Under the pieces are notes generated by a model. The model worked only from the letters and a program-made list of their open reading frames with translations, had not been told where the DNA came from and made no database searches. Position numbers and translations under genes: made by a program. DNA of 42,522 nucleotides, taken from the NCBI GenBank assembly GCA_012519285.1, contig JAAYQN010000018.1:1-42522 (forward strand), given 5' to 3'. This document shows, one piece after another, positions 27,581 to 32,304 of this stretch (within the stretch, counting starts at the first letter, position 1; each line of letters opens with the position of its first letter). The stretch is from Clostridiales bacterium. Its GTDB lineage: Bacteria; Bacillota; Clostridia; Christensenellales; HGM11417.

Positions 27581-28621
27581 TTGATAAAGGCCTCTATAAT
27601 CGGCGCAAACGGCTACACTGGGCTGGAGCTGATGAACCTTTTAAGCTGCCACCCGCAGGCAAAAATCGCTCACATCGTCTCGAGGAGTAACGCGGGGATA
27701 AAGGCGCGCCAGCTTTACCCCAGCCTGCACCGCCTGGGCGAAAAGCGCTTTGAGAATTTGGACCTGGACGCCATAGCGGAGGGCAGCGACGTCGTCTTTT
27801 CGGCGCTGCCGCACTCGGCGAGCGCTGAGGTATGCGGAAAGCTCTGCCGAAAGGGATTAAAGGTAATTGACCTGTCGGCAGACTTTAGGTACAGGGACAA
27901 AAGCGTCTACGAGCAATGGTACAAGGTCAAGCACCCCTGCCCCGAGCTCTGCTCCCGGGCCGTCTACGGGCTGCCGGAGATTTACAGGGAAAAGATAAGG
28001 GGGGCGCAGATTGTCGGCAACCCCGGCTGCTACACTACCTGCTCAATACTTGCCCTCTATCCCCTGCTCAAAGAAAAGGCGATCAGCCCCGACGGCATAA
28101 TCATCGACGCCAAGAGCGGTACCAGCGGGGCGGGCAGAAAGGCCGAGGCGGACCTCTCTTTTTGCGAGGTCAACGAGAACTTCAAGGCGTACGCCGTGAC
28201 GACGCACAGGCACACTTCGGAGATTGAGCAGGAGCTGTCGCTCGCTGCGGGAAGGGCCGTAGCCCTCTCCTTCACCCCCCACCTTTTGCCCATACAGAGG
28301 GGGATCCTTGCCACCATATACTGTGAGCCCGAACGGGGAGTTATGGACGGGGATATCTACTCTGTTTACCAAAAATACTATGCAGGTGAGCCCTTTGTCG
28401 TCATAAACGAGGAAGGGGTTTTCCCGGAGATTAAGCACGTTAGGCATTCCAATTACATATCCATAGGGTTTAAGCTCGACAAAAGGATCAATCGCCTGAT
28501 AATCATAAGCGCGCTCGACAACCTTGTAAAGGGCGCGAGCGGCCAGGCCATCCAGAACATGAACATAATGTTCGGGCTCGACGAGCATGCCGGCCTGGAG
28601 CATCTCTCAAGGTATATTTAG
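27581..28621 (+). CDS. argC: N-acetyl-gamma-glutamyl-phosphate reductase
   Basis: ArgC reduces N-acetylglutamyl phosphate to the semialdehyde with NADPH, the third step of arginine synthesis. The nucleotide-binding GANGYTG motif lies at residues 8-14 and the catalytic Cys150 in 'GNPGCYTT'. 'HRHTSEIEQEL' and 'FTPHLLPIQRGIL' are further family blocks. Length 346 is normal for the short form. The start is a TTG, 7 bases behind GGGAG; no ATG is suitable. It heads the operon argC-argB-argD-argF-GNAT. Confidence 0.97.
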   Translation: MIKASIIGANGYTGLELMNLLSCHPQAKIAHIVSRSNAGIKARQLYPSLHRLGEKRFENLDLDAIAEGSDVVFSALPHSASAEVCGKLCRKGLKVIDLSADFRYRDKSVYEQWYKVKHPCPELCSRAVYGLPEIYREKIRGAQIVGNPGCYTTCSILALYPLLKEKAISPDGIIIDAKSGTSGAGRKAEADLSFCEVNENFKAYAVTTHRHTSEIEQELSLAAGRAVALSFTPHLLPIQRGILATIYCEPERGVMDGDIYSVYQKYYAGEPFVVINEEGVFPEIKHVRHSNYISIGFKLDKRINRLIIISALDNLVKGASGQAIQNMNIMFGLDEHAGLEHLSRYI

Positions 28622-28638: not shown

Positions 28639-29496
28639 ATGCAAAAACTCATCGAAAAGGCAAACATCTTGGCGGAAGCCCTTCACTACATACACAAGCT
28701 GGCGGGAAAGACTGTTGTCGTAAAATATGGAGGCAACGCCATGCAGAGCGAGGAGATAACCAAGACCATTCTGGAAGACTTAGCGCTGCTAAAAATTGTC
28801 GGCGTAAACCCCGTGCTGATTCACGGCGGCGGGCCGGAGATAAACGCCTTGCTGAAGAGCCTCAACATCCAGCCCGTCTTCCACAACGGTCTGAGGGTAA
28901 CCGACAAGGACACCATGAACGTGGTGCAGATGGTGCTCTGCGGCAAGCTTAACAAGGACATAACCAGCAAGCTTAACAACCTCGGCGTAAAGGCCATCGG
29001 CATATGCGGCAAAGACGCCAGGCTAATCGAGGTAAGGAAAAAGAGCAGCGACGTAGACCTCGGCTTTGTGGGCGAGATAATGAGGATAAACACCAGGCTG
29101 ATAGAGCACCTCGCCAACGACGAATATATCCCCGTCATTGCCTCGGTCGGGTGCGACGAGGAAGGTAACAGCTACAACATCAACGCCGACACCGCCGCCG
29201 CGGAGATCGCCTGCGCCATGAAGGCGGAAAAGCTCATATTTTTAACTGACATCGACGGAATAAGGATGAACAAGGATGACCCGACAACATTGATTCCCAT
29301 CATCACCATCGCCGAAGTCGATAAGCTAATTAGCCAAGGCATTATCAGCGAGGGCATGATTCCCAAAGTGATAGCGTGCGTAAAGGGCGTGAAGATGGGG
29401 ATTAAGCGCACCCACATCATAAACGGCACCATCCCCCATCCCATCATGCTGGAGATATTCACGGACACCGGCATCGGGACTATGATAACTGAATAA
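28639..29496 (+). CDS. argB: Acetylglutamate kinase
   Basis: ArgB phosphorylates N-acetylglutamate, usually the arginine-inhibited step. The 285-residue protein shows the amino-acid kinase motifs 'VVKYGGNAM', 'VLIHGGGPEINALL' and the late 'ISEGMIPKVIACVKGV'. The N-terminal extension helix (residues 1-20, 'LIEKANILAEALHYIHKL') is that of the hexameric, arginine-sensitive kinases. It lies 17 bases after argC with AAAGGAGA upstream. Confidence 0.97.
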   Translation: MQKLIEKANILAEALHYIHKLAGKTVVVKYGGNAMQSEEITKTILEDLALLKIVGVNPVLIHGGGPEINALLKSLNIQPVFHNGLRVTDKDTMNVVQMVLCGKLNKDITSKLNNLGVKAIGICGKDARLIEVRKKSSDVDLGFVGEIMRINTRLIEHLANDEYIPVIASVGCDEEGNSYNINADTAAAEIACAMKAEKLIFLTDIDGIRMNKDDPTTLIPIITIAEVDKLISQGIISEGMIPKVIACVKGVKMGIKRTHIINGTIPHPIMLEIFTDTGIGTMITE

Positions 29497-29505
29497 GGTG
29501 ATGAC

Positions 29506-30711
29506 ATGGACTTTGACGAAATAGTGCAAATTCAGGACAACAGGGGCTTTGACGTGTTCAGTCGCAACCGGATATGCCTCACCTACGGCGAGGGCTGCAA
29601 ACTGTACGACACCGAGGGGCGGCAGTACATAGACTTTATGGGCGGCATCGCGGTAAACTGCTTAGGCTACGGCAACGCGAAGCTCGTCGAGGCGATAGAG
29701 AGCCAGTGCAGGAAGCTGATGCACTGCAGCAATCTCTTTTACGAGGAGCAGCAGGCAAGGCTTTTGAAAGCGCTCACCGAGGGCACGGGCTTTGCGAGGG
29801 CTTTTCTGTGCAACAGCGGCGCCGAGGCAAACGAGGCTGCGATAAAGCTTGCGAGAAAGTACTATCATGACAAGGGGCAGGGAAAATACAGGTTTATCAC
29901 CGCCCTCAACTCCTTCCACGGCAGGACGCTCACCACAGCCACGGCGACGGGGCAGGAAAAGTATTCAAAGCCCTACGCCCCTCTCACCCCCGGCTTTATA
30001 TACGTCCCCTTCAACGACATAAAGGCGCTCGAGGAAGCGCTGCTCGACGACGAAGTTTGCGCCGTCATGCTCGAAACCATACAGGGCGAGAGTGGTGTGA
30101 TACCCGCGACAAAAGAGTACCTCGAGGCGGCGAGGAAACTTACAGAGGAAAGGGGCATCCCGCTCATAATAGACGAGGTGCAGACGGGCGTAATGCGCTG
30201 CGGAAGGCTGTTTTCCTTCCAGCTTTACGGCATAATGCCCGATATCGTTACGCTCGCAAAGGGGCTGGGAGGGGGCTTTCCCATAGGCGCCATGCTGGCG
30301 GTGGAAAAGGTGGCGGACGCGTTCAAGAAGGGCGACCATGGCTCCACCTTTGGGGGAAATCCCCTGGCGTGCGCCGCGGCAGTTGCCGTCTTATCGCAGG
30401 TAAACAGCGTCGCCTTCGGGGATGAAGTCAGAAGAAAAGGCGATTTTTTCAAAGAGCTCTTAAAAGGCCTCTCAAAATATCCCTTCGCCGGCGAGCCTCG
30501 GGGAGAGGGCCTGCTCATAGGTCTTCCCCTCTCTTTGGAGGTTGATGGAAAGAAGGTGGCAGAGAAGATGCTCGGCGAGGGGTTTATCATAAACTGCGCG
30601 GGCTCCAACACCTTGAGGTTTGCCCCGCCGCTCATCATAAGCGAGGGCGAGATAAGCGCCATGACGGCGGCGCTCGATAGGGTTTTATCGCAATTTTCAA
30701 AAACGGAGTGA
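29506..30711 (+). CDS. argD: Acetylornithine aminotransferase
   Basis: ArgD transfers an amino group from glutamate to N-acetylglutamate semialdehyde using pyridoxal phosphate. Class III aminotransferase features are 'CNSGAEANEAAIKLARKY', 'FHGRTLTTATATGQ', 'LIIDEVQTGVMRCG' and the lysine of 'DIVTLAKGLGGGFPIGAML' that binds the cofactor. Length 401 is normal. AAGGTGAT stands before the ATG. The stop TGA lies in the ribosome site region of argF. Confidence 0.96.
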   Translation: MDFDEIVQIQDNRGFDVFSRNRICLTYGEGCKLYDTEGRQYIDFMGGIAVNCLGYGNAKLVEAIESQCRKLMHCSNLFYEEQQARLLKALTEGTGFARAFLCNSGAEANEAAIKLARKYYHDKGQGKYRFITALNSFHGRTLTTATATGQEKYSKPYAPLTPGFIYVPFNDIKALEEALLDDEVCAVMLETIQGESGVIPATKEYLEAARKLTEERGIPLIIDEVQTGVMRCGRLFSFQLYGIMPDIVTLAKGLGGGFPIGAMLAVEKVADAFKKGDHGSTFGGNPLACAAAVAVLSQVNSVAFGDEVRRKGDFFKELLKGLSKYPFAGEPRGEGLLIGLPLSLEVDGKKVAEKMLGEGFIINCAGSNTLRFAPPLIISEGEISAMTAALDRVLSQFSKTE

Positions 30712-30716
30712 AAGCC

Positions 30717-31661
30717 ATGGACATCAATAAATACCGTCCTACGGGAAAAATCGGGAACAAGCACTTTTTGACCTTTTTGGATTATTCCACGGAAGAAATC
30801 TTTGAGCTGCTTTACACCGCAAAGAGGCTAAAGGCTGAGCACAAGGCGGGAGTAAAGCACGGCGCGCTTTCCGGAAAAACCATAGCGCTCATCTTCGCCA
30901 AATCCTCAACGAGGACGAGGGTCAGCTTTGAGATGGGGATAAGGCAGCTCGGCGGGCACTCGCTCTTTCTCTCCGCCGCCGACATACAATTAGGGCGGGG
31001 AGAAACAATCCACGACACCGTCAAGACGATGGAGAGGTTTGACATAAACGGCATAATGATACGCACCCACAAGCACAGCGACGTGGAGGAACTCGCCATG
31101 TACGGCACCATCCCCATTATAAACGGGCTGACCGACCTCTGCCACCCCTGCCAGGTGCTCGCCGACCTGCTCACCATATGGGAGCATAAGGGGAAGCTTG
31201 AGGGAATTAAGCTTGCCTACCTCGGCGACGGCAACAATATGGCAAACAGCCTGCTCGCCGGCTGCACGAGGGCGGGCATGGAAATCGCCATCGGCTGCCC
31301 GGAAGGCTACGAGCCCGACCAGAGGTTCGTCGAGGATGCCATGAAAACGGGCAGGGCAACGGTAACGCATGACCCCGCCGTCGCCGCCCAGGGCGCCGAC
31401 ATAATCTATACCGATGTTTTCTTCAGCATGGGCCAGGCTGCAGACGGAAAAAAGTACGAGTCGCTCATCTCCTATCAGGTAAACAGGCGGCTCTTTGCGT
31501 ACGCCAAGCCGGACGCTCTGTTTATGCACTGCCTGCCCGCCCACAGGGGACAAGAGGTCACCGAGGACATAATAGACTCCCCCGCTTCGATAATCTTCGA
31601 CCAGGCGGAAAACAGGCTGCACGCCCAGAAGGCCATCCTCTATCACCTTTACGGAGGCTGA
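30717..31661 (+). CDS. argF: Ornithine carbamoyltransferase
   Basis: ArgF makes citrulline from ornithine and carbamoyl phosphate. The carbamoyl-phosphate motif STRTR is at residues 64-68. 'HPCQVLADLLTIWEHKG' and the ornithine-binding 'HCLPAHRGQEV' follow. Length 314 is normal. ATG at 30717 is chosen because GGAG (30705-30708) lies 8 bases before it. The GTG at 30708 overlaps that site. The transcript continues into the GNAT gene. Confidence 0.96.
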   Translation: MDINKYRPTGKIGNKHFLTFLDYSTEEIFELLYTAKRLKAEHKAGVKHGALSGKTIALIFAKSSTRTRVSFEMGIRQLGGHSLFLSAADIQLGRGETIHDTVKTMERFDINGIMIRTHKHSDVEELAMYGTIPIINGLTDLCHPCQVLADLLTIWEHKGKLEGIKLAYLGDGNNMANSLLAGCTRAGMEIAIGCPEGYEPDQRFVEDAMKTGRATVTHDPAVAAQGADIIYTDVFFSMGQAADGKKYESLISYQVNRRLFAYAKPDALFMHCLPAHRGQEVTEDIIDSPASIIFDQAENRLHAQKAILYHLYGG

Positions 31662-31665
31662 TTTT

Positions 31666-32169
31666 ATGGCTGAGATAATGAGGGCCACTTTGGACGACGT
31701 AAAGGGCATTCACGCCATTACGCAGCTCGCCTTTAAAATGTACCGCGATGAGATAGAGAGCGACGTGCCGCTTAAGGCGCTCACCGAGACAGAGGAGGAC
31801 ATAGCTTGCGATATCTTAAGCAACCACGTATATGTGGCCAAGGTGGGCGGCAAGGTGCTTGGCAGCATAAGGATAGAAAAGCTCACCGACGACCTGGCTT
31901 ACATATACCGCTTTTCGGTGCACCCCGACGAGCAGAACGCCGGGATAGGCACCGAGCTGTTAAGCCATGCCATTTCCGAGTGCGCCAGGATGGGCTTTGC
32001 GGCGGTGGCGCTGCACACCAATGCCAAGTACTTCAAGCTGGCAAGGTACTATTACGGCAAACAGTTCTATGTGCACTCCACCAACGCCGAACGCGGGTAC
32101 ATAAGGGCGCTCTTCGTCAAGGAGCTTAAGGACAAAGAGGTGGACCTCTCTAAGGCGCTCGAAAAATAA
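31666..32169 (+). CDS. GNAT acetyltransferase, candidate N-acetylglutamate synthase
   Basis: The 167-residue GNAT protein has the acetyl-CoA-binding motif A 'YRFSVHPDEQNAGIGTELL' (Q/RxxGxG/A) at about residues 82-100. The C-terminal 'RYYYGKQFYVHSTNAERGYI' resembles motif B. It begins four bases after argF, at the end of the arginine operon. That operon lacks argJ and any argA-type gene in this window, so the first step (acetylation of glutamate) has no assigned enzyme here. Short single-domain GNAT proteins are known N-acetylglutamate synthases in some bacteria, which makes this an attractive candidate. The substrate is inferred from context only. Confidence 0.8.
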   Translation: MAEIMRATLDDVKGIHAITQLAFKMYRDEIESDVPLKALTETEEDIACDILSNHVYVAKVGGKVLGSIRIEKLTDDLAYIYRFSVHPDEQNAGIGTELLSHAISECARMGFAAVALHTNAKYFKLARYYYGKQFYVHSTNAERGYIRALFVKELKDKEVDLSKALEK

Positions 32170-32275: not shown

Positions 32276-32304
32276 TTGTCTTTTCGTTTTATCTGTGTTA
32301 TAAT
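32276..32304 (+). promoter_or_regulatory. Promoter of the DtxR-like gene
   Basis: A -35 TTGTCT (32276-32281) and a perfect -10 TATAAT (32299-32304) are 17 bases apart. The leader is only about 22 bases. Confidence 0.8.

Follow-up and report, generated by a model that had tools for sequence, protein, structure and literature searches.

A single-domain GNAT acetyltransferase carried in clostridial arginine operons is a probable N-acetylglutamate synthase

The last gene of an arginine operon in a Clostridiales genome, from an uncultured clostridium of gut type, encodes a 167 amino acid GNAT acetyltransferase, which is probably the N-acetylglutamate synthase (NAGS) that starts arginine synthesis. 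This is the best reading because the gene is linked to arg operons, because it and argJ exclude each other at the operon level, and because 45 of the 69 genomes that bear the gene have no argJ. An earlier note on this DNA had proposed that the gene may be the missing synthase; the conserved arg context and the exclusion of argJ lend strong support to that proposal. The protein is a member of a clear clostridial family that lacks a name and travels with arg operons. A paper naming this family was not found among the open-licence literature.

The window, i.e. the whole stretch of 42,522 nucleotides that was analyzed, is contig C28 of a MAG of 1.30 Mb (94 contigs, 86.4% complete) from the order that contains Christensenella. 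The gene order is argC-argB-argD-argF-GNAT (Table 1). The earlier note had listed these four arg genes, and all of them exceed curated NCBIfam cut-offs, at the equivalog level for argC, argB and argF and at the subfamily level for argD. It had also described the fifth gene as a single-domain GNAT four bases past argF, with which both the coordinates and the PF00583 match agree: the argF stop codon ends at position 31661, exactly 4 bases before the GNAT open reading frame, which starts with ATG. The gene that follows encodes an MntR-like regulator and is preceded by a promoter-like site (TATAAT at 32304). The operon therefore plausibly ends with the GNAT gene.

Table 1. Features of the arginine operon and its downstream edge in the window
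Feature	Position	Strand	Evidence
argC, N-acetyl-gamma-glutamyl-phosphate reductase	27581..28621	+	TIGR01850, 442 bits (cut-off 233.6)
argB, acetylglutamate kinase	28639..29496	+	TIGR00761, 262 bits (cut-off 151.3)
argD, acetylornithine aminotransferase	29506..30711	+	TIGR00707, 481 bits (cut-off 410)
argF, ornithine carbamoyltransferase	30708..31661	+	TIGR00658, 401 bits (cut-off 280.9)
Single-domain GNAT acetyltransferase, proposed N-acetylglutamate synthase	31666..32169	+	PF00583, 54 bits; kept in arg operons of relatives; AlphaFold2 model, pLDDT 92.7
Promoter-like site TTGTCT-17-TATAAT, TG before the -10	32276..32304	+	Consensus scan; says nothing on function

Homologues scoring at least 66 bits are found in 20 of the 61 genomes of the order, this one included, and all 20 are located in arg clusters. 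A motif scan based on sequence alone, run over about 85,000 species genomes, yielded 61 loci, all clostridial and some in the same genomes as the order set. In 60 of these at least one arg gene is part of the locus; the remaining one is truncated at a contig edge. These linkages (20/20 and 60/61) rule out chance co-location. The gene directly upstream of the GNAT in the 61 loci is argF in 53 cases, carB in three, argB in two and argD in one, with a median gap of 16 bases. The layouts include argCBDF-GNAT, argD-carB-argF-GNAT (Ruminiclostridium), argCBD-carB-GNAT (Christensenella), argCB-GNAT and argDF-GNAT-argCB. Since the upstream gene varies, the GNAT is tied to the pathway and not to one fixed neighbour, and survival of the arg link through rearrangement of the operon indicates a role in the pathway.

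The GNAT gene is missing from all 14 intact argJ operons of the order, which read argC-argJ-argB-argD and in many cases have argH upstream. By comparison, among the 23 genomes in which argC is of the TIGR01850 type and the operon is argJ-less, 19 carry the GNAT gene. In the four exceptions (G001, G021, G050 and G053) the operon runs into a contig end; every one of the 19 argJ-less arg operons that are uncut has the GNAT. Fisher tests for the order gave significant results, however the genomes are non-independent, so that the counts outweigh the p-values. In a tree of 68 GNATs the argJ state needs eight changes, at least six of them on well-supported branches. In genomes with both genes, argJ is solitary and located elsewhere. 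This is the case in about a third of the carriers, and if argJ is bifunctional there, the GNAT would be dispensable in those genomes, which is a counterpoint to the proposed role. Gaps in MAGs fail to explain the absence of argJ, since the argJ-less carriers include two Pumilibacter isolates as well as two genomes of Christensenella type that consist of a single contig. Among the 43 argJ-less carriers tested, none has a two-domain ArgA (TIGR01890) over the cut-off. None has an S-NAGS over its cut-off, however the control genomes also showed none over it and the sensitivity of that search is thus unproven.

The argC genes of the order fall into two kinds: one is of the TIGR01850 type, and the other is shorter, with about 315 aa and scores of 130–184 bits, below the cut-off. 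The shorter kind (loci L053–L068) sits in argC-argJ-argB-argD operons. One argH-argC-argJ-argB-argD-argF operon (L154, G060:C5) looks degenerate: its argC has an internal stop codon, argJ is a fragment and argB is in pieces.

The genome that contains the window was searched for the remaining arginine genes. There is no match to argJ (PF01960) anywhere in the assembly, by a search that gave positives in 10 of 14 control genomes; at 86.4% completeness this absence is no proof, but it gains support from the closed relatives which also have no argJ. Four amino-acid kinases are present, i.e. ArgB, a PyrH-like protein, a LysC-like protein and an unclassified open reading frame of 281 aa. The last is too short to hold a GNAT domain, thus the assembly has no two-domain ArgA. 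The statement in the earlier note that neither argJ nor argA is present holds for the whole assembly. The window protein itself is a single domain, unlike the classical NAGS (TIGR01890), which has kinase and NAT in one chain. The only other PF00583 matches are two proteins which, as read from their sequences, appear to be an Eis-like protein and RimI, the latter encoded next to tsaE and tsaB, so neither was retained as a candidate synthase. Both argG and argH are found together on contig C47, and as argH is a separate gene there, it is not an H-NAGS or argH(A) fusion. The arginine pathway is present in this genome except for the known first enzyme and the known acetylornithine-to-ornithine enzyme.

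The window protein displays a single GNAT domain (PF00583, E-value = 2.3e-14). Its membership in the GNAT superfamily is shown by this profile, by an AlphaFold2 model with a confident GNAT fold, by PDB matches that are all GNATs, and by the invariant glycines G93 and G95. Outside of the CoA motif, the family alignment shows R82, S138, Y145 and R147 to be invariant and R69 to be near-invariant. These residues could hold both carboxylates of glutamate and would suit a dicarboxylate substrate. The last beta strand of the model begins at R147. In gonococcal NAGS, R416, R425 and S427 bind the product and R425 is glutamate-binding (PMC4490483); the strand of R147 appears, by topology rather than by superposition, to correspond to the strand of R425 and S427.

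PDB sequence and fold searches were rejected as a guide to function, as they return many GNATs, none of them diagnostic. No NAGS is among the 50 nearest folds, and some of the best structural neighbours acetylate the N-terminus of proteins, e.g. Ard1 and RimI. None of the known NAGS models picks out the family: its members resemble these models weakly, to no greater extent than they resemble RimI and other GNATs. An hhalign comparison with E. coli ArgA gave a probability of 12%, which represents generic GNAT similarity only, and the nearest NCBIfam models of the family are of mixed functions.

The substrate, the reaction and the part played by ArgB are predicted as follows. Acetyl-CoA would bind in the usual GNAT cleft and its acetyl group would be transferred to glutamate in the first step of arginine synthesis. 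The acetylglutamate would then pass to the ArgB, ArgC and ArgD enzymes encoded in the same operon. In argJ-less arg operons the GNAT would replace ArgJ or ArgA; where a lone argJ is present too, it would supply priming acetylglutamate for the cycle and not a linear feed. Feedback by arginine would probably act on ArgB, possibly also via an ArgB-GNAT complex, since the GNAT has no kinase-like domain and ArgB has an arginine-sensitivity motif. This is the C-terminal motif H-x3-LE-x-FT-x2-G-x-GT (sequence HPIMLEIFTDTGIGT), which we take to be the one associated with arginine-sensitive kinases. The motif was also considered as a means to tell linear from cyclic pathways, but it occurs in both operon types and is uninformative. 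A counterpoint to the proposed reaction comes from M. tuberculosis, where the Km of the single-domain NAGS for glutamate is very poor (PMC4490483).

The GNAT might instead acetylate another metabolite, such as ornithine, citrulline, arginine, agmatine or glutamine, for overflow control or storage. The fold does not reveal the substrate specificity of a GNAT, and the mixed NCBIfam neighbours fit such a role. However it would leave the operon-level exclusion with argJ unexplained, and the first step would be without an enzyme in the 43 argJ-less genomes that have no two-domain ArgA. We consider it unlikely.

The step from acetylornithine to ornithine bears on a further alternative. The earlier note had the GNAT completing a linear pathway. 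The core of that idea, a NAGS, stands by context and by the exclusion of argJ, but the linear route is so far unsupported, as an argE-class deacetylase is not recognisable in the assembly. A linear pathway in this genome is plausible. What the assembly does encode is an M20D amidohydrolase, along with a dipeptidase of the PepV type and an M28-like aminopeptidase. A homologue of the M20D protein in G001, a genome of the same family, has 53% identity and is located about 650 bases from the asd-like match of its contig, which suggests that the M20D amidohydrolase may serve lysine synthesis. Eight argJ-less carriers with arg genes (G003, G016, G043, G027, G063, G067, G069 and G077) show no match to M20D or the ArgE class. 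The deacetylase gap in several argJ-less genomes may mean that their pathway differs from the textbook one.

These eight carriers would fit a GNAT that performs the full task of ArgJ, moving acetyl from N-acetylornithine to glutamate via enzyme-bound CoA in a cyclic pathway that needs neither ArgJ nor ArgE. The arginine-sensitivity motif of ArgB would fit as well, as control at the level of the kinase is found in cyclic pathways. On the other hand, PepV-type M20 peptidases, identified in those of the eight that were examined, G003 included, are possible deacetylases, and G028 has a true ArgE/DapE-family deacylase alongside the same GNAT. CoA-dependent deacetylation of an amide is an uphill reaction unless tightly coupled, and we know of no GNAT with an ArgJ-like acetyl recovery in arginine synthesis; both count against this explanation, which we regard as very unlikely.

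In G027 (L036:7228–8601) and G069 (L197:6125–7498), argB is followed by the GNAT gene in the same frame with only a stop codon between them. The gap in G027 is 9 bases. In either genome TIGR01890 aligns across the two genes, with 182 bits in G027. Adjacent and in frame, the two genes match the domain order of the classical NAGS, and this is consistent with an older proposal that a short NAGS may associate with a kinase (PMC1382215). A single-sequence fold of the G027 read-through as one chain gave a pLDDT of 33 and is uninformative. A split synthase-kinase made up of GNAT and ArgB, in which, without ArgJ and ArgE, the GNAT also recovers acetyl from N-acetylornithine via bound CoA in a cyclic pathway, is a highly improbable extension. 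Just as improbable is an enzyme that acetylates proteins or peptides, acting on Arg enzymes or an N-terminus, and is co-transcribed by happenstance: it would account for Ard1 and RimI among the structural neighbours, but that similarity is generic to GNATs, the genome has a separate RimI, and the arg link persists across several operon layouts.

A different association of ArgB was observed in proteins of about 790 aa in which a MurE ligase is fused to a complete kinase domain of the ArgB type (L309:2312–4666 on G107:C37, and also L307 and L308). The L309 fusion, the one that was scored, exceeds the TIGR00761 cut-off with 235 bits. The genomes concerned also have an argB in an arg cluster.

Recruitment of NAGS has occurred repeatedly, giving S-NAGS, O-NAGS, H-NAGS, C-NAGS, ArgA2 and NAGS-K (PMC3827942, PMC4490483, PMC9026213, PMC7311316). 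S-NAGS (M. tuberculosis ArgA type, PRK07922) is, like the GNAT described here, a single domain of 150–180 aa proposed to acetylate glutamate without an amino-acid-kinase domain. However the window protein scores 20.5 bits against a PRK07922 cut-off of 180, and 11 of 20 family members match that model weakly. S-NAGS has been described in genomes that have argJ (PMC1382215), whereas the present family occurs mostly in argJ-less genomes as an arg-operon gene. O-NAGS (ArgO, from the argCOBD operon of Campylobacter jejuni) is also a short GNAT-related protein encoded within an arg operon; ArgO has 146 aa as opposed to 167, in a comparison by description only. ArgA2 (Bacteroidetes BT3761, Caldithrix Cabys_1732) is likewise an arg-operon GNAT of argA-less genomes recognised by genome context. 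Bacteroides ArgA2, with which the family is again compared by description only, is assigned to succinylated intermediates with ArgF3, and an NCBIfam search with the family matched no model named ArgA2 or Cabys_1732. The classical two-domain ArgA and NAGS-K share their domain order with G027 and G069, but there argB and the GNAT gene encode separate polypeptides. C-NAGS (Corynebacterium glutamicum Cg3035) is a NAGS recruited from the GNAT superfamily, as is proposed here; unlike the window protein, it has 335 aa, lies outside of arg operons and is confined to Corynebacterineae (PMC3827942). Thus the GNAT resembles the short NAGS proteins on evidence of context and is placed in no named family. 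As a NAGS it would add one more case of independent recruitment of a single-domain enzyme.

A proposed synthase of Veillonella and Dialister, ArgA3, has been described as a homologue of N-acetylcysteine deacetylase (PMC9026213). It seems at least as likely to be an acetylornithine deacetylase as a NAGS.

Since the library that was searched contains neither a name nor a model for the family, genome-based predictions of arginine prototrophy for Christensenellales, Pumilibacteraceae, Ruminiclostridium and related Clostridia may break down at the initial step. A second gap is also exposed, i.e. the acetylornithine deacetylase that is missing in argJ-less genomes. If the NAGS reading is true, the first gap would be filled for dozens of genera, and an independently recruited single-domain synthase would join S-NAGS, O-NAGS, C-NAGS and ArgA2.
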